A stretch of DNA of 64,000 nt from Coprinellus micaceus (taxonomy: Eukaryota > Basidiomycota > Agaricomycetes > Agaricales > Psathyrellaceae), in contig OX596346.1 in the NCBI GenBank assembly GCA_951394405.1, positions 868,001 to 932,000 on the forward strand, in the 5' to 3' direction. A model generated the notes under the pieces. The model did no database searches. It was given only the letters and a program-made list of their open reading frames with translations, and had not been told where the DNA came from. The position numbers and the translations under genes were made by a program. Positions within the stretch are counted from its first letter, which is position 1. Each line of letters opens with the position of its first letter. This document shows, in pieces, positions 12,806-57,285 of this stretch.

Positions 12806-13687
12806 TCAATTCCTACGTAAGTACATGACTTCACAAAAACGCGTGAGTCCAAACACTGAACCCCGGCGTTGGCTCAACCTCCCCCTCTTCCACACGGTGG
12901 GTATATGAGAGCCTCCGAGGCCCTTAATCTCTACTCTTTGAAGCCTTGAACAGGCGCCCCAGATACTTGCCAGGCTACCCCAGAACCCCAACTCTTCTGC
13001 CACACTTTCCCTCGGTCTGACGAACATCCCATCCAAAACAGCCTTTTCCAGCCTTGGAAGGCCGGCAAGGAATCCCACCACAGTGTAGGGGTGGAGGGAC
13101 CCAGTCACCGTGAGGTGGAAGGTTGATATGTGACTGAGAGACGAGAGCGCTTGAGCGAGGTTGGGAGTCGGCGGTGCGGGTGATTGTATCAAGGCGGATG
13201 CAGCGCGGAACAAGGATGAGAGGAGGCCATTGCCTCCCTCTCTTCCTGTTGGTGCATTTCGGTTGGCGGACCCCGACTCGAGCCAGAGCTCCGTGGATGG
13301 ACCACCGCAAAGCTCAAGTTGAACACTTTGGAGAGAAATGAGGCCCTCCCCTCTGCTTGGTGATGGGATGCGCGACAAGAGTTTCGTCGACTCGCCGTAG
13401 TGGACCTTGGGAGGCTCGCGGGTGCTGTGTGGTGGAACTGTAACGATATCGAGGGATTCGAGGTTGAACAGTGGCACGCACGGATCTGTGCCAGGGCCTG
13501 AGCCGAGCAATGCGAGGATGAAGTCAATAGTGGCGGTGAGCTCATGAAGTCGAGGTAGCAGTTTTGCCCGATCTTCTGGGCGGATTGGGAGCCCGCCCCC
13601 CGAGGGAAAAGCGTATCCCGGCGGTATGCATATTTCGGCAAATATGATGGATGGGTTCAGGAGGAAGAACGGAATCAAAGTTCAGCA
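12806..13687 (-). pseudogene. F-box-like paralogue B, 3' half (cut by insertion)
   Basis: The minus-strand frame of about 290 codons corresponds to the C-terminal half of paralogues A and C (FLLNPSI...LPRLHELTATIDFILALL...LEKAVLDGMF...LQRVEIKGLGGSHIPTVW). It has no ATG; the frame begins at a TTG directly beside the break point near 13,680. An in-frame TGA precedes the homologous part. It ends at 12806 close to the stop of paralogue A. Together with 57278-58159 on the same strand it makes up nearly one full paralogue, so I read it as the distal part of one gene split by the 43.6-kb insertion. Confidence 0.8.
13680..13687. repeat. Left copy of 8-bp target-site duplication GTTCAGCA
   Basis: GTTCAGCA sits where homology to the intact F-box paralogues stops. 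The same 8 bp occur in the same orientation at 57,278-57,285, at the corresponding point of the other half-gene. On the gene's strand it reads TGCTGAAC, aligning with TGCTCGAG of paralogue A. Confidence 0.65.
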
Positions 13688-13748
13688 CCTGTAGCAGCCC
13701 TGCACACATGTAATGGCAACCAGACTTATGTAGTGGGCCATCATTGAT

Positions 13749-13847
13749 GGACCAACGGACGTGGGCTCACCCGATTATCCCGGGCATCAAAGATGGACTA
13801 GCTGGGTACTCGCCCAATATAGACGCGGACATCCATGGGCCAACGGA
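13749..13847 (+). repeat. Left subterminal motif, two copies of GG(A/G)CCAACGGA
   Basis: GGACCAACGGA at 13,749-13,759 and GGGCCAACGGA at 13,837-13,847. The reverse complement occurs near the other end at 57,193-57,203. The longer match between 13,833-13,852 and the complement of 57,188-57,207 is about 17 of 20 bases. Such motifs are often transposase binding sites; that role is inference. Confidence 0.4.
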
Positions 13848-13952
13848 TTCTGTTGTCATTTGCACAGCCACGTCCCTCGGATCAGCGCAGACCGGCGTCT
13901 AGATAGAGACTTAAGCGTTTTTTTTATCGTTCACCCCTTCTCCTCACCCACC

Positions 13953-15628
13953 ATGTCAGCTCCCCCTCCCAAAGTTCCCCACGGCCCTTCTCCTCCCCCC
14001 GCTTCCAAAAGCAACTCGGCGCAAGACGGACCTCCTCCCAAGCGCCCTCGCAGCCCACCCTCCCCATCCGCTTCCAACGACGACACCAAGCGGGATGGAC
14101 CTCCCAAGCGTCCCCGTGGCCCTCCCCACTCCTACAAAGACAATCCCTCTGTGCAAGGCGGACACAAATCACCACCCCCATCGTTCCCTCGGTCCCCAGG
14201 CAAGGATGGGGAGGGCTCGGAGTCAGATTTCTACGAAGACGTTGAGGAGGATAGCTCGGACGGTGAATACATAGACCTACGAGGTGCTCCTGCGGGGCTT
14301 CCGTATGGACTCAAGAGCATGGTCATTTACGTTCAATACGCCGTGAGTATTTTCCGAGCAAAGGCGGGGAGGCTCGCCATGGACCCAACGGCAGGCACAC
14401 ACGAAGGTTCTCGGATCCCTATCGACCTACGTGCGGAGGTCGAGATGCTGACCGACGCGGTCCTTCGCGCGTGGAACAACCGAGGTGAGTATCCTCTTTT
14501 CACGGCTATGGGTGAAGCTTACATGTCTTCTACTCACAGTGCGGCTGGATTTCAGCATTGCCGAGGTTGCCAATCTCCTCGAGTCGGGTGGATCGCAGCC
14601 CCGAGACAAACTTCTCCTCGAGAGGTTCACTCCCCCTCACCAGCGTAACCCGGACGGATCCCTCCGCCTGATCGATGTTCCAACGGTTTACATCGACAAG
14701 GAGGATCGAGTGGTTGGCTGGTATATTCCTAATGCCTTCGCTCTCCGTCGCTCTGTACGTACACGGATCTCATTTGTATCGAGCTATCTCTCACGGATAC
14801 TAGGCGCAGGTATCTAGCGTGGTCCAGAAGTATGGGGAGAGGGTTTTGAGTATCGGCGGGGAAAATTGGAGGGATGCAGAGCAGAATTTCGCCAACCCGG
14901 AGAAGTGTCTCATGGCCCCTGGAACCGCGAATTTCAGCGTTAGTTGGTACAACCGTGGCTTCAATGTACGTCGCAGTGTATTCCATTCATCGTCTCCGCT
15001 CATGATATCTCGTCTTCCCCTTGTCCAGCACCTCAACTCGAAGCCTGGGCCGTCCGCAACCCTGAAGCAGCAGGCCGGGAAGGACATGCTGCACCGTCTG
15101 CGCACTGTCAACTGCCTCATGGGCTGTCTCCTGGCGCTCGTCCATCCTCAAGCCTACGAGCAGGGGGTCTCAGTGTTCCTCGAGCTACTTCAAGACCCCA
15201 AAAAGACGTCGGACCCCAAGGCCACCATGGAGATATTCCAGGATTGGGCAACCCCGTTCAGCGGCTTCGCCATGGTCTCCAATCGCGAGTCAAAGCCCCA
15301 CCGAGACACGAAAGGAGGCAAATTCTGCCTCGACCTTCTTTCGACGTTTGGATCGTATACAAACGGTCGCCTGGATGTCTCTTTGCTCGGCGGTCAGTAC
15401 GTCTACAACCCCGGGACCGCCTTCATATTACCGGGGTACCTCTTTCAACATTCTGCGAGCCGGACAGAAGGCGAACGCCTTTGTCTCGCCAGTTTCTTTA
15501 GGCCGAACGTCGGACGGGGGGCATTGGGGAGTGATTACGAGGAACATTATCCGCCTACCTTCAACTACCTTCAGTCGACGTATTACTCCCAGGTGCCGAA
15601 GGTCGATGACAAGGACATCTGGAACTAA
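13953..15628 (+). CDS. TET/JBP-like 2-oxoglutarate Fe(II) dioxygenase
   Basis: Exons 13953-14484, 14540-14754, 14804-14965 (or from 14810) and 15029-15628 give 502 aa, with all phases matching. The N-terminal 110 residues are a Pro/Lys-rich disordered tail with basic patches (PPKRPRSPP, PPKRPRGPP), followed by an acidic stretch. The C-terminal half carries the double-stranded beta-helix signature: H394-x-D396 in KPHRDTKGGKF, H444 in LFQHSASR and R453 in GERLCLA. Fungal members annotated '2OGFeDO JBP1/TET' share this layout; known relatives oxidise 5-methylcytosine or thymine in DNA, with 2-oxoglutarate as co-substrate. It lies at the left edge of the insertion and close to the KDZ transposase. 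TET/JBP genes are reported to travel with KDZ transposons in basidiomycetes. Catalytic residues look intact; the base it acts on is unknown. Confidence 0.75.
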
Positions 15629-15636
15629 CTACTGTT

Positions 15637-16272
15637 TTATTTATTTAATCTCTCAACCCACTCGTTCACTTTCTCTGCTCCCTTACTGTAATGTAGCAAT
15701 ACTTCTTCAATTACGACGATCTCCCTTTCAGTCTCCTTCAGAAATTCCCCAAGGCACCTAGAAAGCTTCGCCCCAGACGAGAGAGATGGTGGGGGGGTGG
15801 CGAGTTCCAGGAGATTGCCCCAAGTGCTTAAAAAGTCGTTGAACACGGAACCGGCTGTTGGCAAAGGGCGTCCTAAAGTCCACCAAGGTTGGATGGGGAA
15901 GTGGTATGGGAGCTTCGCTTGGGGTAAGTCCTCGAGAAATTCCCCTGTGCACAAGGCCCTCCAGAGGTCCGCATCGCTGTCCCCTCGGCCGAGGCACACC
16001 GCCGCCCAGTTGAGCCCTTCGAACTCCTGCCCAATGCCAACGCAGAGCTGATAGCCTTGAAGAACAGTTGAGGCCTCCTTGAATTCTATTTAGATAGAAG
16101 GGCTAAGAGAAGAGCGACCATGGCTCACCATTTCCGCCATGAACATGTCAATAGTGTGCTGGTTTCTTGGTCGAACGCGGTGCCCTCCAGCCATGCACTC
16201 CAGAAAGCAGCGACGTCGCCAGTAGGCGTAGCAGCCAAGGGCTCGCCATTCCCATTTCAGGAGGTGTCGCAT
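15637..16272 (-). CDS. Unrecognised protein, possibly the 3' part of a longer gene
   Basis: Exons 16272 down to about 16129 and about 16077 down to 15637, with a 51-bp intron (GTGAGC...TTCAAG) that keeps phase. The translation starts MRHLLKWEWRALGCYAYW and ends in a predicted helix (EREIVVIEEVLLHYSKGAEK). Upstream, the minus strand reads LMQNFFDPDPFRVPF in one frame and PDISFAPTKVMRHLL in the next, as though one base were missing near 16,300. The true gene may be longer and frameshifted, and could join the gene at 16496-17237. I do not know the family. Confidence 0.4.
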
Positions 16273-16495
16273 CACCTTGGTAGGGGCAAACGAGATATCA
16301 GGAAAGGAACTCGGAAGGGGTCAGGGTCGAAGAAGTTTTGCATTAGGCTGACGAAGAGATGGAACTATTAAGCGATAGTCTCTTCGTGGGAAAGTACATG
16401 CCACCCATGAGACGCCCAGAAGCACCTAGAGTACGGGGTAAGGGCGGGAGATGAAAGGGATGGAGGGAACGCTCACAGAAATGCAATCCAACCCG

Positions 16496-17237
16496 TCACC
16501 GATCGACGTCCTCCATGATATCTAGCTTGTGCATCAATTCTTCAACGAATACAATGCTTGTATCGAGCGCTCGGATGTGCTTCAAAGTTTCTATCGACTC
16601 CATACTTGCCTCCTGGACAAGCTGTTCGGACGTTCTGAAGGCGGAGTGAAGATCCTGGCGGGAGAGAGGAAGGAGGTCGAGATAATCGGGTGTCTGCTTG
16701 TTTTTGCGGGGCTTCAAGGCTGTTCCTTGCCTGTTCCAGCATTCAAAGAGCACTTCTGGGACGACCGGTTCGAGCTTCGCGCCGTTCGGAAAGGGCGACC
16801 ACCAACAGGCTTCGTACTTCGGGAGTAGGTCGTAGTCGTAGTCAGGATCGTCGGCGACGACGTCCGCTATCGCCGTGACGTCTTCTAATTGTCCGAAGGA
16901 GTGCAGGTTGACGAGCTTCCGAATGACTATAGGTGGATGGATGTTTCCGGCATGGTATAGATGCCCCAGACCGACCAGAAAGGTAATACAATTCTGACAG
17001 CCCAAGACAATATGATTAGATTGTGTTGTTCAAGGGGTACACGGAAACGCGGCGCACCAGCTCCACCTCGACCAGGGACAAGAACAAAGCCATCTCCCTC
17101 GAAGAAAGCTTCCCCATTATCTCCTTAAACTTAGTTGCCCAGGCCCGACACCGGCTGGCAATGTATAAGACCAGGGATCGATAGGAGTCGACGTCCAGCT
17201 GGCGAAGGCTTCGCATGACGGCGAGGTTTACAGGCAT
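16496..17237 (-). CDS. Unrecognised helical protein downstream of the KDZ transposase
   Basis: Exons 17237-17043 and 16993-16496 (49-bp intron, GTGTAC, CTAATC branch, TGTCAG) encode 230 aa from ATG 17237 (MPVNLAVMRSLRQL). Mostly helical, with an Asp-rich middle (VVADDPDYDYDLLPKYEACW) and a C-terminal helix (FVEELMHKLDIMEDV). No known domain is seen. It is on the same strand as the KDZ gene and begins 110 bp after its stop. Its proximity suggests it travels with the transposase; a function is not evident. Confidence 0.5.
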
Positions 17238-17347
17238 TGGAGGAGACCCACGAAGGAGGAAGAGGCAAGAAGGAGAAGGCGCGCGGCACCAAAATAATAT
17301 GATTCCAACTTAGCTAACCCCAGCGTCAGGGTAGACGACACGCGAAG

Positions 17348-20300
17348 TCAGAATACCGCATCGACAATGACCCCGCCCTTTTTCTCAAACTCTCGCGCGG
17401 CGTAGCGCCCAAGGCGATACCACATGTTCGCCTGGCGGTATGCATACGCAGAGTGTCCCGCAGTGACCCCGTTTAAAGCCCAGCCTGTTGCTCGGACATG
17501 GCGATGCTTGCAAAACCGGACGAACCAGTCCATCTCGGACTCGAGCATCTTCACTTCTTCTTTCCAGCGGTCCACTCGAGAGCGAGCACGAATCCAATTC
17601 ACGCGGTATACTGGCTGTATGGTAAGGACAGTAATTTCGTAGAGAGGGGCTATAACTCACAGTCTTGTACGTACTTATCCGCAGCATTCGGGTCGGAGGA
17701 AGGGACATGAATCTTCCAGATCCAGGTAAGTTGGCTGTCCCTCTGCCCCCGCGCGTTGGGGTTCCAAATGGTTATCACAGCTCTTGTGTCTTGGTTGGTG
17801 AGCTCCTCCAATTCGGGGTACCTTTCCAGAGCCTTGAGGCGGATAAGCGCCCCTCGTGCGAGGTCGTAGCGGTTACACTGCAGTCGCATCGCAGTTTCAA
17901 TCGTGTTGATCTGGCCGTAAATTGTTTTTCGACCTCTCTTCCCGCTGGCGAGCTTCTTGTTCCCTCTGTAAAGGTAGGATTTGTGTGCAATGAGACCGCG
18001 GAGGCTCTCTAAAGCTTCGTGGGCTTGGGCAACCCGGAGCCTCTCCTCCTTCCCAACCTCTGGCTTCCACCTCCGAGGGAGCTCTAAGGCTGTAGACGGG
18101 AGAGGGATTGGAATGTCTTCCACCTCGGCCTCACCTTCGCCCTGATCGCCCTGATCGCCGCCTCTCCCAAGCTCCTCTTCACAGTTGCATTCATTGACAG
18201 GATCCTCGCAGACGCAGAGGTTTCTGTCCTTCGTGGAATCCGCGCTGAGCTCTTCCAGGTCGAGGCCGTCGAAGAGCTCGGTGCCCTTCTCGTAGAATGC
18301 TTCTATCTTCTTCAAGAGAGACGCACGCTTACGCTCAGCCTCTATGGCGGCAGCTCCAGGCTTTGCGTCCGAGGCGATTCCTTTGACAAACCCGCGCAAG
18401 TCAATCCTGTTCGGCCGAGGGCTGTGGATTAGTATCGAGGAATTAACGAGGAATTGGGACGCACTGTTCTGACTGAATCTGGATCCCTTTGGCAATCCAT
18501 TCTGCCACTCCTCGACGAGTTTTCATCTTGCGTTCTTGTTTCATAAGCTGGACTTGAGCTTCTTGTTGTCCTTCGGCTGAATCGGGGGGGAGTACGTCAG
18601 TTCCGCTCATCAAGATCGACAAGACAGGGCTTACGAACGAACTCACCTTCATAGGATTCTGTTTTATATATGTCCATCGCGGTGACATCTCCAGCCACTC
18701 GTTTTGCGTGGGCGTCCTCCATCACCGCCTCCCACTGCGTTCTTTGCTCGGCCGAGCAGTTCTTGTCGACCAGCGCGAAGTCTTTCTCTGCAATAACGAT
18801 ACCTTTTTTTGCATCTGCGTACTGCTTGAGGAGATAGGCCACTGGGGACAAACGGGTAAGAGATCTGGCGCCCTTCGCATAAAGATGAGACGTGCCCATG
18901 TTCAACAGCTTCTTCCAATTGCTGTCGGCCATGCACGCATCAAGGACCGCAACGCGATGAGCTGCCGTCATGTTGCGGGTACTGTTGGCAACGCCAATGA
19001 GGGTAGACCAGAGAGACTCTAGGATTTCGCCTGCAACTACACCAGCGCCTGGGGTAAACGTAGGGGCAAAGCGAGCGAGGCAATCCTCTTTGTGGCCATG
19101 GACATGGAAGAGGCCTATGAGGAACACAATTACTGCCTCTGATGGAATCGACTCTTTCAAGACGGGGTCTTGGAAGCGCGCGCGAAACTTGACGCAGTAC
19201 TGGCAATTCACGTCGTACGCGAACATGAGACCCAGAAGCAAGGCGGCGCCCGTCGTTTCATACGCCTGGGCGAGTGAGTAGTCGCCATTTTTTTGCCTGT
19301 TTATCAAGTTAGGCTTGGAGTCGGAAGGCGCTCCTGTGTACGCGTACCTGTCGGACGAGGGATGTTAACCTTTCTCCCCGGCCGAAGCTCAGTGCGGGCC
19401 CTACCTTTCGCCTTTTTGCATGTCGACCACCGATCCTGGTGCGAAGCATCCATGCCTAGTGCATGCACAGGCAAGAATGCCTGTGGAATCGAACCCTTTT
19501 TTACCCTTATTCTTATCTGTTATGGCTCGCAATTGGTTGCAGGTTAGAGTCTGTAATTTCCGTCAGTCCCAGGCACCATGATCGTCGAAGAACGCTGACA
19601 TCTTTCCCCTCTTTTCCATCTCCTATGAAACTGTTGAACCTTGTCCGCTCTGCAAAGTAGCCAGCCCCGTTCATCAGCCAAACCGCGTTGTCTGGATCAT
19701 TCACCATGAGATGATCCAGTACAAAGTTTCCGTCGGCCGTCAAGAACCTCCAGAAACGCCATCTAGACATTGTAAGTTTCGTCGTCAGTAATATTCGACC
19801 TAGTCAACTCACGGATCATCGAGATCCCTCCAGTTGTCTGGAATATTCACACCTGGTTGAGGACATACCGCGCAGAATAACGCTAGCTCGCCCTTTCCAG
19901 GAGGCGAGATTCTCAGGGAGACGATTCCCATTCCGTGCCTTTTCAGTGTTACGAGGTAGTTGTACTGCTGCCACACCCGAGTGATCTCCCTCTGCCGCTC
20001 CTTCAAAGTTCAGTTGTATTTCAGAGAAGTCCTCGAAACATGTTAAGGAAGAACGTACCTTTGATTGAGAGGGGAAAACGTAATTACTTAACCGGCGGAG
20101 GAGGGCACAATAGTGCTCTACGGACACCTGCGAGTCAACGATGCTCAGGTGGAGATGCTTCAAGAGCTCAAACGTGAAGACTGTTTGAGGTTCGGCCGAG
20201 GTTGCCGGATAAAGATTAGACTTGACAAGTTGAATGTCGAAAGAAGGTGCACCGGAACAAAAACATTGAAACACGGGTACTTCGTGAAACCCATTCGTGT

Positions 20301-21193
20301 GGACGACTGTCATCATGCATGCTCCGCCTAGCTGGCCAGTGGTTGGTCTCGCACCATATGTGGGGTCGTCTGGAAAGGTCCGCTCTTCCTCCAAGTCTTG
20401 GGCCGTCATACGGATGACCATTGCTTCAATGTCTTCCCGGCTCTTCTTGTAGTAGGGGCACGGTGATAGCCCATGGCCCAGACAGATCACCGCCCCCACC
20501 TGCCACATCCAAGAAGGCTGCCAACGATTCTTGACCCAGGTTTCGATCCGATGGAGGGGGCTCCTCCGGTGCTCAAGGCGGCAGCAGTCACGACAGAGTC
20601 GCGGGGTGGAGATGCAATCCAAACATCGCATCTCCGCATCTCCAAATCCGCAGCTCTCGCAGGAGGACGCGCATCGACCCTCCCTCTCCAGGAGAGCCGC
20701 CAGATATGACTCAGAATGATCCCGAGCCCAGGCGTCCATGTATTCGTGTGTTGTCTGGATGTTGTCTGGATGAGAACCGTGAAAAGTGAGAGTGTAGTGA
20801 TGCGTCGTTGCTTACCCGTCCTTGGCTTGTTTTTCCGGTGTGCGACTGTGTAATACCTTCCATGAACACGGGAGGTGGTCCGTTATCGTCATCCGACGCG
20901 TCGCCATCTTGTCTCGAAGGGCTGAGCGGGGCATGGTCATCGTAGGCAAAGTGAGGCACGCTCAATGTGGGGAGTTCGTCGGACGCGACTACGCCATTCT
21001 CGGGTTCAGCATCGCCTCGCTTTCTCTTTCTGGGTGTGTCAGGTGTCGCTTGAAGTGACGAGACGGGGACAGGCTTGATCTTGATCTTCGAGCCTCTTCC
21101 TGAAGTTGATTCAATAAATTCAACCTCGATGTTGTCTTCGTCGCCATCGTGAGTGTTAGAGATGTTTGGTCGGCGCAAACGCCGCAGTCCCAT
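17348..21193 (-). CDS. KDZ (Kyakuja-Dileera-Zisupton) transposase with CxC2 cysteine cluster
   Basis: Nine exons: 21193-20816, 20754-20059, 20000-19813, 19762-19594, 19550-19405, 19296-18647, 18576-18465, 18421-17661 and 17610-17348. Total 3,363 nt, an uninterrupted 1,120-aa frame. Residues 1-126 are acidic/basic and disordered (TPRKRKRGDAEPENG). Residues about 154-225 are the Cys/His cluster called CxC2 (CESCGF...RCLDC...LCRDCC...LEHRR...LGHGLSPCP), presumed zinc- and DNA-binding. The RNase H-like core shows D431 (ADGNFVL), D554 (AYDVNCQY) and E616/E619 (GEILESLW), with CARHGCFAPGSVVDMQKGER-like and GLFHVHGHKEDC blocks between. The C-terminus (LYRVNWIRARSRVDRW) matches the family's end. Length and motifs are complete, so it may be active. 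It is divergent from the 173-aa gene, 116 bp apart. Confidence 0.92.
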
Positions 21194-21309
21194 GCGTGAA
21201 TCGAGCAAAAAGAGGGGAAGGAAAGGCGAGGGTGTGATGGAATCGGAAGGTTTGGCAGAAAGTGATTTTTGCCATCACCGGGTAATATACCCCCTTGTTC
21301 AAAGCGACC
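21194..21309. promoter_or_regulatory. 116-bp divergent promoter (KDZ transposase / 173-aa gene)
   Basis: Only 116 bp separate the two start codons. It contains GGGTAATATACCCCC at about 21,280-21,294, a near-palindrome that could also serve as an AT-rich core element. Shared control of the two genes is inferred from the spacing. Confidence 0.45.
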
Positions 21310-21831
21310 ATGTCCGCCCTCCCTACATCTCCTCAAGCTCCAGAGCCCCATCCCGCAAAGGACGGCCAATCCTTGTCTCTCCAAAATGCGACAGCGGCGG
21401 CAGGACAACCCTCCTCTTCTAGCCAACCACCCAAAGCCAATCCACCCGGCGAATCCATCACCGACGCCATAATCACTGCTGAGCAGGAGCTTCTGGTTCA
21501 AGACCACTCCTTGGATGCCCGCTTCACCTCCGAACAACTTTCCGACATGAACGCAATGGTTCCCGAGTATACGTTCTCCTTGCGAAAGCAGAAGAGCCAT
21601 ATCACCCGCACCCTCAGCGACAAATTCATCAAGCAGATCCTAGACAGTGGCGCGGAGTTGGACAAGGCGAAGAGGGCCAGAGTTCTGGAGGTATGGCGGC
21701 ACCACCTATTCAGAACATTACATGCCTTTGACATTCTCCCCAAGAACGTGCAGTACTGGTTCAGCCAACGGTGCCGTGTGAGGGAGAACGTCCCGACCTT
21801 CTTCCACCCATATGCATCAGGTACTCCATGA
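21310..21831 (+). CDS. Small protein divergent from the transposase
   Basis: Single frame of 173 aa from ATG 21310 (MSALPTSPQAPEPHP). The first 55 residues are Pro/Ser/Ala-rich. The rest is helical and basic, including VPEYTFSLRKQKSHITRTL and a region with NVQYWFSQRCRVREN. The WF-x-x-R spacing recalls the third helix of a homeodomain, but the invariant Asn is Gln and the rest of the fold is not evident, so I do not call it one. A 43-bp intron (GTGAGG...CATCAG) could alter the last 15 residues. The head-to-head position suggests co-expression with the transposase. Confidence 0.5.
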   Translation: MSALPTSPQAPEPHPAKDGQSLSLQNATAAAGQPSSSSQPPKANPPGESITDAIITAEQELLVQDHSLDARFTSEQLSDMNAMVPEYTFSLRKQKSHITRTLSDKFIKQILDSGAELDKAKRARVLEVWRHHLFRTLHAFDILPKNVQYWFSQRCRVRENVPTFFHPYASGTP

Positions 21832-23140: not shown

Positions 23141-24698
23141 CTACGAAGCCTGAGCCAGACTCGGTTGAACCTGCTGTGTCGCTCCACCGGTGGCAGTCGC
23201 GCCCAGGCTCTTCCTGGTGGTTCGGTGCTCCTTTAGCTTGGCTAGGATGCTGTTGTTAGGAGCAAGACGCCGCGTGGTTGAAAAAGACGGAAATATTTTT
23301 CTGGGAGTCCAGGTATCCCAACCGTCAGCAAGTGTTGCATTAGAAGAAAGACATGGTTCCAACTCACTGGTTCCACCAATTCAAGAGAACCTTAACCTCA
23401 TCCTGTTCCTCAGGATCTTCTAGAACCTCCAGGATAGACGTGTAAAATGTCTCGGAGTCCGTTTCCCTGTCAGACCGAGAGAATATTGAAGCTGAAGTCA
23501 ACGCGAAGCGGACCTAGAAGAAGTGCATTCAGCCCCCAACTTAACGTGGACCAGAACCTTCTTCCTCACCTGGGTCGCGACATAAGCGAGGGAGGCACGC
23601 GTGACCTGCGTCATGCCATGTATACGCGCGTTTCCCGAACGCGTCGCCTTAGGGTCCTCGTCGACGGAGCTCGGGGAAGTGAAAATATGTTTGAATCCCT
23701 GCCTCAAGTAAGACGCCTTCCTAAGGGAGAGCGGACACAAAACTCACTAAGACCAAGAGGCGACCCCGAAACAACCCTTTCCACGGTTGCACCGCGTCAT
23801 ACTTCTCGTTGTGATAAACGAATATAGGCCAATGGGATCCCGTCACAATGATATTCTTGTCTTTTAGTTGTTGCCTGATACTAGGAGGGTGTTAGCTGAT
23901 GGCTCTAAATGCAATGCGAGATAACCCCTAAATGACTAACCTCTCGTCGTTCCAGTCGAGATCAGGTGGGCATAGAAGGAACCCAGTCCTGGGATGGTTG
24001 AAACCTCGATTGACCTTCACATTTCTGGATAGCTGGGATTCCAGCGGTGCTCCCCCTGGCTCCACTAACCACTCTAAAACGGCACCTTTGAGGGTCTTCG
24101 TGTCGTCCGATCGCGCACTAGCGGCGCCCTTCTGTAGCTACGTAAAGGTGTTAAGCGGGGACAAGTCGCGACAGGCAGAAGAAGTATACCATAGTGGCGA
24201 TAGACATAAGTTCTTCCTCGCTGCATTCCATCAACCTCTCTTCGAGGTTGGGAACTAGGCGAAGGAGCTGGCGAAAGACCCGGATTTCCCGCCTCTCCCT
24301 GACCGGGCGTCAGCTCAAAGGAGGTCCACATATAAAAGGCGAAATGCTCACTGCTGCGTCTCGGGGGGAGCTTCATCGTCTGTGTTGATACCCGCCAGCA
24401 GTAAAGCATGTACGTTTGCGAACGCATACACCGATCGGCCAAAATGACGGCCATGGTGAATGAGCGGGTCGGTGTGAAGGTTACTGGTATAAACACAATA
24501 CCAAGGCTGTCGTCAGCATTTGCGCTCGAGACAAGTCGCTTTTACTCACGGACGCTTCCTTGGACCCAGGCTCAAAGCGCTTGGCCGTTTCTGCCCAGCT
24601 CCCCCACTCACATCCTCCCCTTCCCCCGGAGGTGCCCCGCTCGAGGTTCCGTACCTCGGGCGGCGTTGCTCAGGACTGCTGGCAGCGGGCGACGTCAT
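23141..24698 (-). CDS. DUF6698-like protein (expanded Agaricomycete family)
   Basis: Eight exons: 24698-24550, 24483-24352, 24298-24190, 24131-23941, 23880-23748, 23698-23570, 23513-23368 and 23300-23141. Total 1,149 nt, an unbroken 382-aa frame. A disordered start (MTSPAASSPEQRRPRYG) is followed by DPLIHHGRHFGRSVYAF, ARSDDTKTLKGAVLEWL, VNRGFNHPRTGFLLCPPDL, GFKHIFTSPSSV, TRSGNARIHGMTQVTRASLA and a basic C-terminal tail. This block order is that of a family widespread in mushrooms, which I recall as DUF6698. Its function is unknown and it often sits near transposons. The name needs checking; the gene model is solid. Confidence 0.8.
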
Positions 24699-31973: not shown

Positions 31974-32430
31974 CGGGTAAAGCGAGGAAACAGAGGATGC
32001 TTGGAGTGGAGGGTGGGCGAGATGAGGATGTCGGAAGAAAACGTATGGGGAATGGGAAGGTGGAACGAGGGGGCAGTTCAGTGTCTGCCAGATGTGTTGA
32101 GATCCAGGCTCCCAAGTATTGATACATCCGACACATCCGACAAACCTCCGTCGCGCAAACATCTTCGTTCCGAGGAGGGAGGGCATGTCCAGACTGGCCA
32201 CTACACCGGTAAGTCGATAAATGGCACGAAGAGAAGGGAAGACTGGGCGTCGTGCGAATGGTACAATCGGCGATGCAGTAAGACAAGTGGCACAATAGGG
32301 GACAGTAGGTCAGGAGTCGTCACGGACCCCTCACGAATTGAGACTCGAATAGCACTGCCGAGACCATTAGAAAGGGGTTAGTACGAGTGCTTATAAGACT
32401 AAACCGAGTGCCCACCTTGAGAGTTTCATC

Positions 32431-46406: not shown

Positions 46407-48193
46407 ATGTCTTACCATAATTCCCTTCCGCCTTCCGCCTCTTCCTCTAGCACCGCTTCTCCCACACCTGTACGCCCCAGCTGCGCGAACGCGGATGATT
46501 TACCTCTGGAGTTGGTCCATAAGGTCTTCGTCATCCGCGCCGACGCCAGGCACGACGAAGCGTGCCTCCATGGGACAGTATGCGTCGATCGCCCGTTTTG
46601 TCTGGAGGCACAGTCGCCCGACCATACCGTGGCGCAGGTCTCGCCTTATTGGAACGCCATCGCTCACGGCCTACCTAAACTGTTTTCGAAGATACGCGTC
46701 CTCATCAACGACAACTTCGACCCGGACTCTGAGGTTGCAGAAACAATCCCAATCGACAATGCCGACGAGGTTACCGCCCTCGTGGAGCTCTCGGGATCGG
46801 AGGATCTATACCTCTCTATTGGAGGCCCTCCCGACCCTCTGACCTCTCCGCCGCTTCACCAGGCTACCATGTTGACACTCGAAAGAATCGCCGAGCGAAC
46901 GGTCCACCTTGCCTTCGACATGGATAACCCCGCGCTTGTTCGCCTCCTCGGAAACACATGCTTTCCGAAACTCAAGTCCGTTCACCTCGACGGCGGCTCC
47001 AAGCACGAGTTCGACTCACGCTACGATCACTGCGGAGTCGAGCTGACTAACCTCGAGACCCTCCTTCTCTGGCGTGAAAGCCCAATCCAGCGCATCGTCT
47101 CTGCCCACCGGTTGAGCGTCGCAGTCCGTGCTAAGCTCCCCTGGGATTCGGTCAAAATTATGGACCTCCACGGTGTCCTCGCTGGCTACAAGGAACCCCA
47201 TGTCGAAATGATGCTGAGCCTGGCGCAGCGCCTGGTGGAGATGAGGGTCCGCGTCAACTCGCGGTCGAAGCTCTATGCAGTTCCTCACGCATCTTGGGGT
47301 TCCACTGGGAAGCATGCGCAAAAAATTGTCCTTCCCCACCTCAAAGTTCTTCACATTTACCATTCGTTTCCCGCGCGACCTGCGGGTACCCAGCCTCCCA
47401 AGCCTATGTTCTCCCTACTCAAAGAAGTTGTTTTTCAGTCGCTGGAGGAAATTTACTACAGATGCAGCGACGCACCCCATGACGACAGCATCGGGTGGTT
47501 GCTGCAGAGGCAGGACTCGGTCAAAATCCTATCCCTCGATGCCCACCTCTTTCGACCACCAAAGCTCGCGTCGATATTGAAGGCGCATAGCGCCGTCGAG
47601 CAGCTGTACCTTTGGAGTCGCACCCCATCTGAAGTATCGGGCGGGTTCTATTACTTCGACAATGGCACGCTGGAGGTGCTCGAAGGCGCTGGCCAGCCCT
47701 TGAAGAATGTGTCGCTTTTGGGAGAGGCTTCCTTCACATCTGCCGCCTTATCTCATTTCAGTAAGTCGTTTCCCGTTCATAGGCCTCTTTCACAGGATCA
47801 GTTGCTAACTGTTCCACAGCTCGGGTTTTCAGATACACACTCCGCACGGTTATTCTTTCTCATTGGTGTGGCCCTAGCCTTAATGCCGTGGCCAATTTCA
47901 AGAAAACATTGCCAGAAACTGTCGACTTTAAAGTGGGACAGGTCTTCGCTTGCCGACAGACCCGTCACACAGGCGTTCGAACCGCCCGGAGACGCCCAGT
48001 TGGGGGCTTCCACCAGATGCGCCGTTGTTGTGATCGCGACACGGAAGAAGGGCGAGAAGAATACTTTCTTGCGTTTTGGTGTACTCCCTGCCAAATGAAC
48101 CATACTTCGAAGGACATCGACCTCAATGCCATCGAGAGCTCCTACGCTCCGGCGATTGACGACCGACGGCAGGGGTTTTGTTACACAGACTAG
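46407..48193 (+). CDS. F-box-like protein of a different subfamily
   Basis: Exons 46407-47760 and 47820-48193 (59-bp intron, GTAAGT, CTAAC branch, CCACAG) give 575 aa from ATG 46407 (MSYHNSLPPSASSSS). Residues about 29-75 resemble an F-box-like region (DDLPLELVHKVFVIRADAR...VAQVSPYWNAIAHGLPKLF), typical of fungal proteins that may link substrates to an SCF ligase. The middle is leucine-rich; the C-terminal exon is Cys/Arg-rich (MRRCCDRDTEEGREEYFLAF). It differs from paralogues A-C and from the 60.7-kb gene, so it is cargo rather than a copy of the split target. Confidence 0.75.
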
Positions 48194-49030: not shown

Positions 49031-51251
49031 ATGCCCGCCAACCCCACCGCTGCTCGAGTTCCTTCTCCCAAGAAGAGATCGGCACGTCGCCGCGAATCCG
49101 TCTCTCTATCTCCGGCCCCCAACAAGAGGCGCAACGTCGGGCCCCCTAACCCACCTCTTCAATCTCCTGGGGTACCTAGGTACTTCCGACGCCCTCTCGG
49201 GGAAGATGGCACCTTCTACCTACCGGGGGAAATCCGGCCAGTAGCCCTTCCCAGCCCCAAACAGCCCGGTACGCTAAGGTCTTCTGCTCGATGTGTGATG
49301 CTTGCGTTCTAACTTGTCTCCACCGGTTCAAGGTGCCCATACTCCCCCTTTCTTATACGCTCAGCTTGGGAAGGTAAAGGGCGAGGCTCTCGAAGTTATC
49401 ACTCGCATCGTCGACGAGTTGACCCCCCTTTCGCCCGATCGCCCGGAGTCGTATACCCAGATCCACTTCTTCACTACCGTCGATGGCCATTCTTTGAAAT
49501 TCGTGGACACCCTTGCAAAGATCACCCAAATCGCCGACAACCAGGCTGCCTGCTACACAGGGAGGTCCACACGCCTTCGGAATCGCGCAGAACGGTTTGA
49601 TACACTTCACCGACTTGTTGATAGCCACGAGGTGTGTTACAGCTGCGCGGCCTCCTTTTCAAAATGTCCTCTTGGCTGACGGCTGTCGATCTACCAGGAA
49701 GCTCGGAGCTACGTGTTTAGGTCCACTTTGACCTACCTTGCCCAGAAGAAGACCCACCCAAAACATGTCATCGACATCTCCGCATATGCATCTTCGAGGC
49801 GAGCTTCCCTCAACAAGACGAAGGATGGAGGTGAGACTTGCAGGAAGACGTTCAGCTGGGTCGGGCTTAAAAGGTCTGTCCCCCACTCCGCTTCGCAAAT
49901 ATCTCTGACAGTGCTCATCAGGCTTACTGCAACCGAACTGTCTACCCTCACGGACAAGATCATGGTCGAAACCGAAGAGCTTGTTGAGATAGGGAAGTCA
50001 CATGGGGTTCTGAAGGATTCGGACCCCAACGGCGTGCCTAACTTCGTCAAGCTCGAGGGGCGGGGATCTTACAGGGTCTGTGCGCCAGCGCCAGGACAAA
50101 CGAACCATGCCACTGGCGCAATCTTTTGGGAGACGGAGGATGACGATGATACCACTCCGACCAGCGATAAAATTGTGAGTCGGATGTCCTTCGCGCCCTA
50201 TCACATACCGCTCATCCTTCTGTGACACTCCTCAACCAGATCGGCGCAGTCGTCTACTCCCCAGACCTCATTAACAAGGCATTCTCCCCTGCTGAAGAGT
50301 ACAGTGAGGTCGAAATTCTTATCAACCAAGAGCTTCTCCTGTAAGTTCCATTACCTGTTTGATTCTTTGCTAACGCGAGCACCTTATATGAAATTCGCGC
50401 TCTTCCAGGGAAAAAGCCAACGTCGACCGACAGAGGCTACTTAACAGTGGGAAAATGGCCAAGGGTCGGGGAGCGCAGTCGATCTATGGTCTACCCTACT
50501 TTATGAAGGTTCGTTTTCTCTTTGGGCCTCAGTCCGGAACTTCCGTGGTTAACATCTGGGCCTCAGCTCCCTGACGATCAAGAGTTCTACGACGGGAATG
50601 TTAGGATCCCCGTTCAAGCCGTCGAAGCTTGTGTGTCGCATTTTCATACCTACGCGGGCATGGCTCTGCAGTCTGATAGTATTACACAGTCATCGAATCC
50701 CGACACGAAGCGTTCCTTGAAGGCTTCCTCCCAGAATTCGCAGCTGAACGCAAGGTAGAGGCATTCCCCACACCCTATTCAACAGGTCGCTAACCGTATT
50801 CCTCGCACAGACCGCCGCACAAAAGGCACATCTAATCAATCAGCTCGGATTCCCCTCAACATCGACCTTTGTCACCTATGGCTATGCAGCGTCCGCTCAT
50901 TTTGATAACGACGCATGCCCCACGTCCGGTTGGGTGACCCATCGCCCCGCGTCTGTAAGTGGAAATATATCCCACTGCGATGCGTGCTAACTAGCACGAC
51001 GCTCCCAGTTGCATCGTTTCACGAGCAATTTCGTTTGGGCATCCCATGGATTGCTCGTGGAACTGGCCCCCAACGCCTTCTGGTTTTGGCGGGGGCGGAA
51101 CGATGCACATGGAACGACAGTTCACGAGGATATTTTGACCACCCCTAATCTGAACTACACCAAGGGTCATATCAAGAAGTATCCAGGTGCAGCACAGGTT
51201 ACGCGGGCGTCAGTTTTATCCGAAGCGGTTTGCAAGGCTCATTCTCGTTAA
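49031..51251 (+). CDS. Putative 2-oxoglutarate/Fe(II) dioxygenase-like protein (second H-x-D gene)
   Basis: Ten exons: 49031-49268, 49333-49631, 49698-49830, 49912-50174, 50240-50340, 50409-50508, 50567-50632, 50680-50754, 50811-50954 and 51009-51251. Total 1,662 nt, closed 553-aa frame from ATG 49031. The first 60 residues are basic and disordered (PSPKKRSARRRES). The C-terminal part has H455-x-D457 (AASAHFDNDACPTSGWV) and a distal H507 (RNDAHGTTVHEDIL), with hydrophobic strands between (WASHGLLVELAPNAFWFWRG). This layout resembles Agaricomycete proteins related to JBP/TET dioxygenases. The usual downstream arginine for 2-oxoglutarate is not obvious, so activity is uncertain. It does not align closely with the 13.9-kb gene. 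Confidence 0.55.
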
Positions 51252-51701: not shown

Positions 51702-51988
51702 GAGGGGCCCGGGGGTAACGACTCCTGAGGCCTAAGGCTGAGGCTGCACTATCTCCAACTCCTGTCAGTCGAAACACTCGAATGAAGTCAATAATCTCGC
51801 TGATTACGTTCTGTACCTTAGGTTTCCTCCGGACTCTCTCTGGGAAGCTTCGGGCCGACACCACTTCCACCCAAGTCTGTCCCCTGCCCCGTTCTCAAGT
51901 TCTCAACTCCCCTTCAAACGACCGCAACGGCAATAACAATAATACCAACGTCCACCTCAAACCCGTGAAACCCGCGTGCATCTACCAT

Positions 51989-54909
51989 ATGTCGTCAACT
52001 CCCAGTCTACAAGCCGCGGCCGATGGTGGCCGGATTCTGTTCCATGGAGGAGTCCGTTACTACTCACCGAACAGCTTGGTGGATGCCGAATTCGACTTGG
52101 AGGAACCTTCGGCGCTGGATACCCTCGAGTCCAACCCTTTCAAGCCCGCAAACCACTCTGGGCCCCGGGTGCGGTACAGAGACTTTGTCCGCCCAAGGAA
52201 GTGGACCGAACAGTTTGCTTGGATGTGCTTCGTCCCCGTCGTGCCGTCGCAATGGTACAACGATCACCACTCGTACCTTGGGCGCATCCTTTACTCGCTC
52301 CCCACTCTCAATACTTTCAAGAATGACCACGGCAAAGTCAGCGGTTACCAAATATCTCCGAGTAGTGCATGGATTCAACTGGAATCAGACCTCTACCGTG
52401 CTGTGGTCGTACTATCCCGCCATTACCACCTCCAATGTGTCCTTCCTTTCCTCCCCAATGCCATTGGCTACCAATCTATGTTCCGCCAGAAGAAACAGTT
52501 GATAAATCGACTCAACCAAGCCCGCGAATGGTTTTTCGTTTGGCTCGGTGCGTTGTCATTTCTGGTGGCGAGAATTCGAGAACCTTGGCGCTCCGAATTT
52601 AAAAGCCAGTTGGACCACCAATGGACTGCTGTCCTCCAATCGAAGGGTCTCTCCATGACCTTCATCGACGGTGTACGGAATTCTCTGGTAGTTGACAGGT
52701 GTGTCGGCACACGACGCGCAGGTATTATACTCGACATAGCCCAACCTTCCCCAGGACAACCGCACCCGTCCTGGTTCTTGGGTCATGGCGTACCTGTGTG
52801 GTATCGATGGAGCAACACGGAAGAAACCCTGGCGAAGGATAACTCTGGATTGAAGCAGCTCTGCCCTCCTCACTCATTACTGTTGTGCACGCAATCCTCC
52901 TCCCCAGTGTCTACCCCTCCCTTTCCTAGAAGTGCCGACCTCTGCATCATTTCCACCGTGACCCCAGCTCCTTGCTCCCATGACTCTCAACAGGCCTCCC
53001 AAGCCCCCCCAGCGATGCCAGACGTTATTGAAGCGCCTTCAGCGAGTATTTCTCCCCAGACTTCTCCGACCAGCCTAGCACCCCCTACCACCGAACCTAT
53101 AACTCGGAACTCAGGGTCGCCTCATGCCAACAGCCAAGGAGACCATCCCGCGGACGGAAAAGGAGGCCAAGACAAGCCAGAGCCCGAACCGGAATGGATC
53201 CCCTTTTTTAAACAAAGGGAAGCCGCCCATGCAAAGGCGTTGGCAAAGGAGACCCCCAGGCAACGTCAGGCCAGGGAGAACCGCATAAGGGAGCCTGCTA
53301 CCTCGTCGGCAAAGGTTTTCGAGTGGTATCTTTCCGAGGAAGCGGGGCGCATGTACGACCGAATCCCAGTCCTCGCCAAGGCACGATCGGACACCCTCCA
53401 GAATTACGGAAACGCCCAAAAACGATATGACCCGTTCTTCAACGAATGGGACTGCTGTTCAGAGTGGGGACCTGACGATTCGGATGATGACTGGATCGGC
53501 GACTGGGATGAACTTGAAACTGCCCTCGATTCTGAACCGCTACCCGCTACTGTTGCAGCGTCCCTTGTGCAGGTTGAGAAACCCACGCCCCCCGATGCCA
53601 TCTCGTACGTCGATTCCGATCACCCAACCAACGCTTTTATGGCCGTTCCGTCCGAAGGTGATCGGCCTAGTGGGTCAGACCCTGACTGCGACATTTTACA
53701 AGAAGTCAACGAGGGGTTCGGTCTCTTCAATGGGTTTCGACATCCCCTACCACACACCGAGATACCCTCAAGGCAGCATCCCATTCGAGATCAGAAATTC
53801 TTCATTCGCGCTCTAGGCCTCTACACCGATTGCGGCCCTGATGAAATGGCATACTTCCAAACAAACCACTACCAATTTGCGCAGCAATTCCTTCTGTCCC
53901 TGTGCATTCGCGAAGCCCCCTCGATCTCTGAGTTGTGGGATCTGCGCGATGAATGTGCCCTCCCCGTCCGCTTGCGCCCACGTTTCAAACGAATCCGACT
54001 CGTTCATCTGGCGGGTTTGGATATTGGTGAAACGCAGGATGCTAGCTACTACGTATTCCACCACGAAGGCAAGGGCGATAATGGAACCCCTTGGAGGCTT
54101 GGAGTAGCGTCCGCCGCAGACGCTCTTCTGGTCTGTCGACTCCCAGATGACTCCAGCCCATACGATCTCGCATCCTTCCTCGTCGGTCGTGGTGTGTCAT
54201 TCCGCACTTTTTATCCCTCTCTCAATATTCTACGACCGCCCTCAACCCGTTCACTTCTGTTTCACCAAGTTCCCAAGCGGCCATTAAACCATGAATTCAC
54301 CAAAGCAGATTACGACGCGTATTTGCACATGAGGACACTTCTTCTAGGTCAACCTCACATGCAGGCCGCTCTTAAACGCGGCGGGATCATCTGGCGCCTT
54401 GCAGTTGGGACACTCGGAACTTCCAAGGTCACCTTCGCTCCCTCTCTGTGGGGGGCCTCGCACCTTATCGACCTTCCTGAGGGCCAGTTCGTGGATGATG
54501 TCTTGACCTCAACAGAGCTCGATTTGCTATGCGGGGCATATGAATGCGTATCGGGTGAGCAATTATTATTAGTATCTAATGGCGACCTTTATTCACATAG
54601 TGGCCGCCCAACTTTGTAGATGACGGAAAGCAGCGAAGCTTGAAGTCGTGGTGGCCCCTGGCCCGGTATTACGAAAAGGCTGAGTGCGGGGAAAACTACG
54701 GTCGTTGGACTTACCGCCGGGAACATTGGTACGCCAAACGTTTGGGGGAGATCGAGAGCGGGGATGCTCGCCAACAACCTCTGACATATACCGAGTGGAA
54801 GAGCTCACAACATGGACCCAAGGCACTTCGCATATTCCATTCTTATGTCAAACGATCGTCCGAGGAGCTTTTGAAAGCGCAGACCCCCCAATCCCCGCGG
54901 GTGGCCTAG
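51989..54909 (+). CDS. 951-aa member of an expanded Agaricomycete family, function unknown
   Basis: Exons 51989-54554 and 54620-54909 (65-bp intron, GTGAGC...TTGTAG) give 951 aa from ATG 51989 (MSSTPSLQAAADGGR). An in-frame ATG at 51782 would add 69 residues. Blocks recalled from many mushroom genomes appear in order: FHGGVRYYSPNS, RYRDFVRPRKWTEQFAW, REWFFVWLGALSFLVARI, VPVWYRWS, WIPFFKQREAAHAKAL, RENRIREPATSSAKVFEW, QKRYDPFFNEWDCCSEWG, then an acidic stretch (PDDSDDDWIGDWDELE) and a second folded half ending KSWWPLARYYEKAECG...REHWYAKRLGE. No catalytic motif is recognised. Family copies are numerous and often near transposons, which fits its place here. Confidence 0.75.
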
Positions 54910-55399: not shown

Positions 55400-55870
55400 T
55401 ATGAAATTTCAAACGAAACCTCGAAACCATGGCCTTACTTGGGAGGTCGAGCTCTTGAGACTGCAAGCAAAGCTAAGGGCTGCTCAGGTGGCATCAGAGG
55501 GATGTAAGTTCGCCACTCTGGACGGAGTTGAGAGAAGCGGTGTCTATTATCATCCACTGACAATCGAAGGGCCGGGGGCAGATAAACGCTTGTCACAGCA
55601 ACCTAAATTATCGATTGCGTTCAACCGTTGACATGCCCCTGCTCAGGGTTCGTCTATGCTTTGAGGTATGATACTTCATATGATACTTCGAAACCATGGC
55701 CTTACTTGATAAGTCGAGCACCCGAGACTCCAAGGAAAGGTAAACGTCCTTCAGGTGGTCACAGTGGGATGGGATTTCGCCATTCTGAACGAAACTGAGA
55801 GTATTGTTTTGAAAGGGAACCCCAAGGCAATCCAAGGTCAGGTGCAAATTATCACTTGTCACCGCCACCG
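55400..55870. repeat. Diverged direct repeat, period about 260 bp
   Basis: The segment from about 55,400 (CGAAACCATGGCCTTACTTG at about 55,422) returns from about 55,661 (CGAAACCATGGCCTTACTTG at about 55,690). Similar following text includes GTCGAGC, GAGACT, TTCGCCA and AAATTATC. The first 20 bp are identical; the rest is scattered similarity. Its origin is unknown. Confidence 0.5.
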
Positions 55871-56173
55871 AGTCGCCGAATCAAGCCCAACACCAGCTGG
55901 ATAAATCAGACACCCGCAATTTCCCTGATGTATACATTCAAGGAAAGGGTGATGAACTCATGAGGGGGTAGACCTAAGCTTCGATGTAGTGGAGATAAGT
56001 GGAGTGGGGTCCGAGAAAGTAGCTCTATTTATCAGTAGAACCTCTGTGCTTAACGTCAATTTCCAACTCTGCGCAATTCCAGTTTGCTGCTGGGCACTTG
56101 ATCGGGAAACTGGAACTCTTGCTTTAGCCTGACAATACTTCACCCAAAATTACCCTTGGGACTCGGGCGGATT

Positions 56174-56297
56174 AGCCAGATTTCTACGAAGACATTGAGG
56201 AGGATAGCTCGGAGGGCGAATACGTAGAACTACGAGGTGCTCCTAGGGGGCTTCCGTATGGAATCAAGAGCATGTACGTTTACGGTCAATACGCCGT
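56174..56297 (+). pseudogene. Truncated second copy of the TET-gene first exon
   Basis: About 124 bp match 14,221-14,345 at roughly 90% identity by eye, in the same orientation. The translation (DFYEDIEEDSSEGEYVEL, RGAPRGLPYGIKSM) parallels DFYEDVEEDSSDGEYIDL, RGAPAGLPYGLKSM of the left gene, with mostly conservative changes. Homology ends at CAATACGCCGTG and no dioxygenase domain follows. It is a relic of a sister gene or element rather than a very recent copy. Confidence 0.75.
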
Positions 56298-57192
56298 GGG
56301 TCCTTCCCACAGCACCAGAACCCAACCTTTCTCGGACGTGGACCCACCCTGATCTCTCTAGCACGGCGTAGGGCCCTCGTACGAAAGGTCTTACGGGCGT
56401 AGGGCCGTCCGAAAGGTGGCGGCAATGTAAGAAAAGGGAGGAAATATTTGGGTGACGTGGTGGACCCGATTGAAGTTCGTCTAGCTTGGGCAGGTGTCAG
56501 CAATCAGGTCTTGCTAGATGCGGTAAGGATAATGACATCCTCGAGGAATTGAGACAGACCGTGGCGCGGCTGCTACGGTCCTAGATATCCCAGCAGGCAC
56601 CATTGTTCAACCTACTGTGCTTAGTTGAATTTGGGTGCAACCCGATATCTGGGATGCCTGTAGGGGTCTCGTGGACTCGGAGAGAGATGGGGGGAGGTCA
56701 GTCGTTTGTCTGATTAGATGTATTAATGTCAGAGGCAGTATGTGCTAAATAGTATGAACGAGGTGGCTACATACACTAACGAAATATGTGGTTCGAAGTC
56801 CTGGAGTTGGCTGCCTGCTGCCCGTGTTTTGATGCGGGGGAATATTTTTTGGAGTGCAGGAGGTGCGAAAGGGTGTGGATGTGAAAGTACGAGAGTACGA
56901 GAAATAACTGTCCAAAAGGTGGACCGCTCGTATGCGAAATCGCACCGCTATTGTTGGGGCGAGAAACCAACCCACCGGATGCACCCTCGGGCAGCGAATA
57001 TCCGAGGCTGGGGCAGCGCGCGGGGATCGGAGGACAAAAGCAGCCCAAACAGTCAGCTGGGCCATGGCGAATGGCGGATGCATAAACCCAGCTCGGCCAC
57101 AAAGGTGAGGGAGTCATGTGGGTCCAGCGGACTCCGCCGGGTGGGAAGCCAGCTGAGCTCAGGTCGATCATCAATGATTGGACACAGCAGAC

Positions 57193-57203
57193 TCCGTTGG
57201 GCC
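57193..57203 (-). repeat. Right subterminal motif TCCGTTGGGCC
   Basis: The reverse complement (GGCCCAACGGA) matches the motif at 13,837-13,847 in 10 of 11 bases and that at 13,749-13,759 in 9 of 11. It lies about 75 bp inside the right end of the insertion. Confidence 0.4.
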
Positions 57204-57277
57204 ATGTTCCATGTGGCAGAGTGATGTCGCCTAGTGCAAAGTTGTCGCTGGGAGGTTGGTGTCATATATCCTAAGCT

Positions 57278-57285
57278 GTTCAGCA
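57278..57285. repeat. Right copy of 8-bp target-site duplication GTTCAGCA
   Basis: Identical to 13,680-13,687 and placed where the 5' half of paralogue B loses homology to paralogues A and C (after the HLPML block). Confidence 0.65.

Follow-up and report, generated by a model that had tools for sequence, protein, structure and literature searches.

A split gene in Coprinellus micaceus: a probable Kyakuja-type KDZ transposon with a 34-kb PlavakaB-type element inside it

The best explanation for the 43.6-kb interruption of gene B, to which we give a probability of about 0.92, is that a Kyakuja-type KDZ transposon split the gene and that an unrelated PlavakaB transposon replaced 11.8 kb within it. 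The direct observations beneath this reading are the edges, the other copies and their duplications, the missing 11.8 kb, and the near-identity of the copies. A preceding sequence-only reading of the window (the whole stretch of 64,000 nucleotides analyzed) had recognized a recent, gene-rich insertion that splits B and carries a target duplication, and to this extent it holds, whereas the edges it assigned and the unity it assumed do not.

The split gene and the edges of the insertion

10,644-12,638, plus strand: paralogue A, an uninterrupted open frame with 664 codons between stops
12,806-13,682, minus strand: gene B, 3' part, together with one target-duplication copy
13,676-13,682: left copy of the target-site duplication CAAAGTT
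13,683-57,236: whole insertion, 43,554 bp, first bases CAGCACC, last bases CTAGTG
57,237-57,243: right copy of the target-site duplication CAAAGTT
57,237-58,159, minus strand: gene B, 5' part, in which a stop and a shift out of the frame of A lie close to the break
58,365-60,302, plus strand: paralogue C, uninterrupted, with an F-box-like match scoring under the Pfam cut-off

The two halves of B are regarded as complementary parts of one gene because each covers a separate part of A: in the translated A frame, the 5' half aligns to residues 54–325 (39% identity, E 5e-48) and the 3' half to residues 363–661 (33% identity, E 2e-39). As had been proposed, they share one strand, the minus strand, and follow each other in the right order, and the flanking paralogues A and C are indeed intact open frames. 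When the flanks are joined at CAAAGTT, the result, EQLRIYDTNLPATTLIPFFLLNPSI, tracks paralogue A (ESFEMDAAAIPLTSLISFLLLNPSI) across the joint. Directly upstream of the break, B runs into a stop codon and leaves the frame of A, both of which a short GT..AG intron, read by eye, could explain. A Coprinellus relative of gene B has no interruption at the break, and two uninterrupted proteins of the B clade (P0001 and P0002), 42% and 44% identical to B versus 36% and 39% to A, continue through the break position; the intact B that had been expected elsewhere has its counterpart in an uninterrupted relative in another species.

DNA matches to contig C8 begin abruptly at window position 13,683 and end abruptly at 57,236, and since the second copy of both ends on C8 maps there, these positions are taken as the edges of the element. 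The direct repeat CAAAGTT is found exactly at them. The heptamer is not rare, with 12 matches in the window versus 6.9 expected, and its weight derives from its exact position together with corresponding repeats of 7–8 bp that border two further copies of the element; immediately beyond the same pair of tips stand CAAAGTT in the window copy (contig C13), TCGCGACC in the C8 copy, and TTTTCTT in the C2 copy. The duplication is exactly 7 bp in two of the three copies (C13 and C2), and the 8 bp at C8, one extra matching base, count against the favoured explanation. The 8-bp duplication GTTCAGCA that had been claimed at the break points gives way to the actual one of 7 bp, CAAAGTT: the element begins with the last five bases of GTTCAGCA (13,683–13,687), and the second claimed copy, at 57,278, falls within gene B. 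This octamer has four matches in the window versus 2.2 expected, and at least four were obtained in 15 of 100 shuffles.

The outer and inner elements

13,683-21,813: left part of the outer element, 8,131 bp, 4 substitutions relative to the C8 copy
13,740-13,749, plus strand: subterminal motif ATCATTGATG, 57 bp inward of the left end
13,953-15,628, plus strand: TET/JBP dioxygenase gene with introns, start placed by eye, last long frame 14,804-15,628
17,650-20,811, minus strand: KDZ transposase gene in several open pieces
18,600-19,364, minus strand: KDZ domain of the transposase gene (PF18758, 86.1 bits, cut-off 26.6)
19,819-20,811, minus strand: CxC2 cysteine cluster of the transposase gene (Pfam, 74.7 bits, cut-off 27)
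21,286-21,813, plus strand: truncated start of an outer-element gene, cut by the inner element and continuing in the C8 copy
21,814: one additional base, G, at the left inner junction, absent from the C8 and C5 copies
21,815-55,930: inner PlavakaB-type element, 34,116 bp, CATCAGG..CCTGATG, a 7-bp inverted repeat
55,931-57,236: right-hand 1,306 bp of the outer element, 0 differences from the C8 copy

Two unrelated transposase families, KDZ and Plavaka, were detected with Pfam inside the insertion. The outer element is a KDZ transposon carrying a TET/JBP gene, with ends and a duplication that fit the Kyakuja lineage; its assignment to Kyakuja over Zisupton or Dileera is based on the tips and the duplication length. 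Other copies with both ends, anticipated earlier, were found in the genome on C8 (C8:1,625,571-1,646,835; 21,265 bp) and, in diverged form, on C2. An interior of 11,828 bp in the C8 copy is absent from the window copy; most of it recurs at 65–80% identity in the third copy, on C2, and it is therefore ancestral. One Pfam batch of eight stretches gave a listed family in a single stretch, a peptidase C48 below the cut-off in the C8 copy. The outer tips, CAGCACC..CTAGTG and CAGGTCC..CTAGTG, are of the CA..TG type, with no terminal inverted repeats seen beyond the first three bases, and the motif ATCATTGATG has an inverted partner at 57,169–57,178, 58 bp from the right end, with no further exact match in the window beyond this pair. 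Within the outer element, Tet_JBP (Pfam) scored 59.8 bits (cut-off 34.9), and the solved structures closest to the product of the TET/JBP gene are CcTet (E 1e-30) and a TET/JBP-domain entry. In the segment HRDTKGGKFCLD, H, D, G, and D at 0, +2, +5, and +11 correspond to the metal-binding HxD and the substrate Gly/Asp at the spacing of CcTET, whose residues are His326, Asp328, Gly331, and Asp337 in the available portion of Kojima 2025 (PMC12730594).

The inner element contains, besides the transposase, at least four gene regions.

23,367-24,137, minus strand: DUF6698 gene, four conserved exon pieces, DUF6698 over the cut-off in 4 of 4
28,640-32,309, minus strand: Plavaka transposase gene region, several open pieces
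42,723-43,213, plus strand: passenger gene fragment, conserved in a diverged C3 element
46,407-48,095, plus strand: passenger gene of 563 codons, shared by the C13, C5, and C1 copies
49,091-49,609, plus strand: passenger gene region, with a conserved counterpart in the C3 element
51,719-54,619, plus strand: passenger gene with a 966-codon open frame, relatives in Coprinellus, Candolleomyces, and Coprinopsis

Pfam Plavaka exceeded the cut-off in two of the four transposase-region pieces tested (255–351 bp each), the PF18759 scores being 28.9 and 30.1 bits against a cut-off of 26.3; the two pieces adjoin and cover 30,013–30,530. The 563-codon passenger gene gave no match in the Pfam scan and, by eye, looks F-box-like. 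No TET/JBP match occurred in the PlavakaB stretches scanned, nor was an HxE-type TET seen by eye in 48.9–51.3 kb. Most of the stretches tested were without a Pfam match, those with any family numbering 3/10, 2/10, 5/10, and 5/8 by batch (the 5/10 batch consists partly of flank genes, with two of those five over the cut-off, and four of the five in the 5/8 batch are DUF6698 over the cut-off).

A full copy of the inner element on C5 matches exactly 21,815–55,930, is flanked by AT/AT (a 2-bp duplication), and differs from the window copy by 8 substitutions and one extra 27-bp repeat unit; the tips CATCAGG..CCTGATG are present at both the C13 and C5 copies. A protein search brought up the C5 copy, which short DNA queries then confirmed; DNA searches with queries of 17 kb missed both this copy and the window itself, and their silence has been left unused. 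The C1 copy cannot be taken as complete, because nothing was found at the expected place of its left end, a 374-bp left-end piece lying about 4.7 Mb away on the same contig. For the C3 relative, neither CATCAGG nor CCTGATG marks a right end in the 10 kb covered.

Age and order of events

Between copies, the outer element differs at 4 of 9,437 positions and the inner one at 8 of 34,115 (p = 0.30), and thus there is no significant age difference between them; both elements moved recently. Nine of the 12 differences between copies are CpG transitions, an excess suggesting that methylation affects the elements for at least some of the time. The TET enzyme would presumably strip methylation from its own transposon, as is proposed in the available text of Kojima 2025 (PMC12730594).

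In the predicted order of events, the Kyakuja-type transposon would have entered gene B, leaving the 7-bp CAAAGTT duplication, and PlavakaB would have arrived second, inside the outer element, each being mobilized by its own transposase. The window copy of the inner element is without a target duplication (flanks CATATG / TATACA), so that its insertion was not a textbook one, and because of this absence together with the one extra base at the left edge, its arrival is tied to a deletion or end-joining event. Most likely, at somewhat better than even odds, PlavakaB would have inserted at TA, at the right inner edge (TATACATT), and a deletion from its left tip would then have taken the left duplication and the 11.8 kb, with one extra base staying behind. 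A possible but distinctly less probable route is the capture of an excised linear PlavakaB at a double-strand break in the outer element, without insertion by its own transposase; the exact tips, missing duplication, extra base, and large target loss are what end joining would leave, but insertion plus deletion from the left tip yields an identical structure, and the TA beside the right tip is a plausible 2-bp target for an element that makes 2- or 3-bp duplications. It is unlikely that Kyakuja had already been shortened and that PlavakaB later inserted near the old joint.

Stepwise nesting in place also requires one step fewer than joint movement, in which the nested pair would have formed elsewhere and then entered B as one 43.6-kb unit by means of the outer tips and transposase. 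In favor of it, the outer element retains its two tips intact along with its transposase and TET gene regions, and the test above gives no significant age difference between the elements, but a second copy of the pair was not seen in the genome, where short end queries gave separate elements on C8 and C5, and we consider this origin quite unlikely. An assembly artefact in which unrelated repeats were misjoined, as near-identical copies elsewhere might favor, is very improbable, since misjoins would not be expected to place a 7-bp duplication precisely at tips that were mapped independently, or to let a protein alignment run across the joined flanks. Least credible of all is the one single new cargo-rich element first proposed, for although 43.6 kb lies between one duplication pair, the outer element recurs in full on C8 and the inner one on C5, each with a duplication of its own, and two unrelated transposase families are present, making the insertion a KDZ transposon with a PlavakaB transposon inside. 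Unless both of these copies were assembly errors, they already refute the single element. Nor is a new kind of mobile unit needed, the movers belonging to named transposase families (Pfam KDZ and Plavaka).

Comparison with known systems

TET-carrying Kyakuja transposons of Agaricomycetes are described in the available text of Kojima 2025 (PMC12730594) with a 7-bp duplication and CA..TG tips, and no inverted repeats are reported for them there. The outer element resembles them in its 7-bp duplication, CA..TG tips, KDZ transposase, and CcTET-type TET/JBP gene, whereas the window copy has lost the 11.8-kb interior and holds a second transposon, and the C8 copy has an 8-bp duplication; the subterminal inverted 10-mer neither contradicts nor confirms the absence of inverted repeats. 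For PlavakaB, the same text gives tips CATCA..TGATG and 2- or 3-bp duplications, with TET/JBP carried by some families. The inner element agrees in its tips, the 2-bp duplication at C5, and the Plavaka transposase, but differs in its length of 34.1 kb, its at least four further gene regions, and the lack of a duplication at the window copy. In Marasmius oreades, KDZ and Plavaka account for about half of the DNA-transposon sequence, and neither a nested pair nor a 34-kb Plavaka is among the elements described in the available part of that report (PMC8290104). Literature searches returned no paper on a 34-kb Plavaka or on the nested pair, which does not prove their absence.

Clean edges, duplications, and recent copies are thus at hand in one genome for both a TET-carrying Kyakuja and an unusually gene-rich PlavakaB, the gene-carrying 34-kb PlavakaB being the most interesting part. 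The recent movement of both leads to the direct question of whether TET keeps its own transposon and the lodged stranger unmethylated. A further lesson is that one duplication around a large insertion does not guarantee a single element. That the 43.6-kb pair is a working mobile unit, in which Kyakuja carries PlavakaB and may shield it from methylation, is quite unlikely; if true, mushrooms would have a two-layer giant element, a functional counterpart of the Starship with DDE-type transposases.

The premise that only Ascomycota have giant cargo elements is weakened by eight Starships of 42–606 kb in the basidiomycete Tremella fuciformis, according to the available text of the report (PMC13066641). 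PF11917 (DUF3435 captain) had 0 matches genome-wide, but control genomes were equally silent, and no tyrosine-recombinase domain was found in the Pfam-scanned stretches, which cover part of the insert. The elements described here are like Starships in their large size and in the passenger genes travelling with them, but they are much smaller than many Starships, and their presumed movers are KDZ and Plavaka transposases instead of a tyrosine-recombinase captain. The Starship comparison drawn earlier does not appear to fit the insertion as a whole in mechanism, and retains some force, as an analogy only, for the 34-kb PlavakaB as a multigene moving unit.

Edges of the insertion and the interrupted gene

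The insertion that splits gene B, an F-box-like paralogue lying between the flanking paralogues A and C, proves genuine and recent; known transposon lineages account for it, with one element placed inside another (positions in the window).

13,683–57,236: the whole insertion, 43,554 bp, with the tips of the outer, Kyakuja-type element
21,815–55,930: inner, PlavakaB-type element
46,407–48,095: passenger frame of 563 codons in the inner element
51,719–54,619: passenger frame of 966 codons in the inner element

A left-edge query of 401 bases matched C8, another contig of the same genome, at 100% starting at window 13,683, and a right-edge query of 521 bases matched it at 100% ending at 57,236; CAAAGTT stands directly outside both edges. 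Other copies sharing both ends, which the sequence-only reading had proposed to look for, lie between direct repeats of their own: the C8 copy (identical tips, TCGCGACC at both sides) and a copy on contig C2 (72–76% similar, TTTTCTT on each side). The 8-bp repeat GTTCAGCA, which that reading had taken for the target duplication, had to be abandoned: the window contains it four times, a number reached in 15 of 100 shuffles, and part of it lies in the element.

That one gene had been split is borne out, since the two halves, both on the minus strand, in the correct order and flanked by uninterrupted A and C, align to complementary parts of translated A (residues 54–325 and 363–661). With the flanks joined at CAAAGTT, the translation tracks paralogue A over the joint, in a single frame downstream of a frame change. 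Two proteins, P0001 from Coprinellus aureogranulatus and P0002, are continuous through the break point and nearer to B than to A; because they are 42–44% identical to B, they represent an empty site for the gene family rather than for the strain. Named relatives belong to Coprinellus, Candolleomyces and Coprinopsis, among others, which makes a host from the inkcap family likely.

Formation of the nested pair

The C8 copy of the outer element (21,265 bp, C8:1,625,571–1,646,835) has in common with the window its first 8,131 bp, with 4 substitutions, and its last 1,306 bp, with none. Between these two parts the window copy lacks 11,828 bp, which are ancestral, because most of this stretch is common to C8 and C2 at 65–80% identity; the missing part contains a 964-codon open frame and a stretch weakly resembling an Ulp1 protease (C48, short of the 20.7-bit cut-off at 16.6 bits). 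The window has instead one extra G followed by 34,116 bp running from CATCAGG to CCTGATG. No duplication flanks this inner element (CATATG before, TATACA after); its copy on C5 (3,186,363–3,220,505) has AT on both sides. It is most likely that the inner element inserted at the TA now on its right side and that a deletion starting from its left tip then took away 11.8 kb; the main rival is that an excised PlavakaB was captured at a break. The copies differ at 4 of 9,437 positions in the outer element and at 8 of 34,115 in the inner (p = 0.30), so these counts give no order of the two insertion events.

Nine of the 12 differences are changes between CpG and TpG or CpA, in either direction, against about 1.6 expected by chance (p = 2e-6, assuming all bases equally mutable). 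This excess looks like decay of methylated CpG, but CpG may be generally more mutable here; overall depletion is absent, the observed/expected CpG ratio being 0.92–0.93 in both elements and 0.92 in the flank.

Gene content and relatives of the two elements

Between the outer tips lie a KDZ transposase with a CxC2 cluster (Pfam) and a TET/JBP gene (Tet_JBP, 59.8 bits; cut-off 34.9), whose frame matches the solved structure CcTet (7vpn) at E 1e-30 and retains H, D, G and D at the spacing of CcTET His326, Asp328, Gly331 and Asp337. Genome-wide, 28 of the 31 Tet_JBP matches listed exceed the cut-off. The 10-mer ATCATTGATG occurs exactly twice in the window (expected 0.14), in inverted orientation within the outer element, 57 bp from one tip and 58 bp from the other, and may be a transposase-binding site. 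The outer element also repeats 135 bp of its TET gene (14,221–14,355) in direct orientation close to its opposite end (56,174–56,308, 87% identical), and the C8 copy likewise carries the repeat.

The transposase region of the inner element has Pfam Plavaka matches. The C5 copy differs from it by 8 substitutions and one additional unit of a coding 27-bp tandem repeat (window 35,533–35,883). On C1 there is a third copy, in which the right end matches at 99% and the two large passenger genes at 98–99%; its left end was not found at the expected place. In a more distant relative, on C3, the left end, the transposase and the DUF6698 gene are preserved, as are three passenger regions, of which one is inverted; about 5 kb that include the 563-codon gene are missing from it. 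Relatives of the 966-codon gene are found close to TET/JBP genes, at distances of about 1.4 kb and 9 kb (C1:954,276–958,025; C10:1,734,830–1,745,811), so this gene may be carried by more than one kind of transposon. Outside the known copies, relatives of both large passenger genes are again close together at C8:1,805,452–1,821,143 and C2:1,691,033–1,692,872.

Elsewhere, two contigs carry equally scoring Plavaka matches at a spacing of exactly 22,292 bp: the window's own contig, about 45–70 kb past the window (C13:977,106 and 999,398), and C3 (3,978,203 and 4,000,495); the same spacing and score suggest a duplicated 22.3-kb unit common to two chromosomes. At window 5,699–6,563, two 38-bp inverted arms, 89% complementary with 789 bp between them, are perhaps a small transposon of the flank.

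Comparison with known transposons

The locus offers a well-bounded TET-carrying Kyakuja-type element and a gene-carrying 34-kb PlavakaB of which a near-identical full copy exists, and the nested pair is a system that would make the role of TET testable. For TET-carrying Kyakuja, Kojima (2025; PMC12730594) describes 7-bp duplications, CA..TG tips and the absence of terminal inverted repeats. By tips and duplication the outer element fits this description as a putative Kyakuja, with the reservation that one of the three copies here has an 8-bp duplication. The tips described for PlavakaB in the same source are matched by the inner element, and the duplication described there by its C5 copy.
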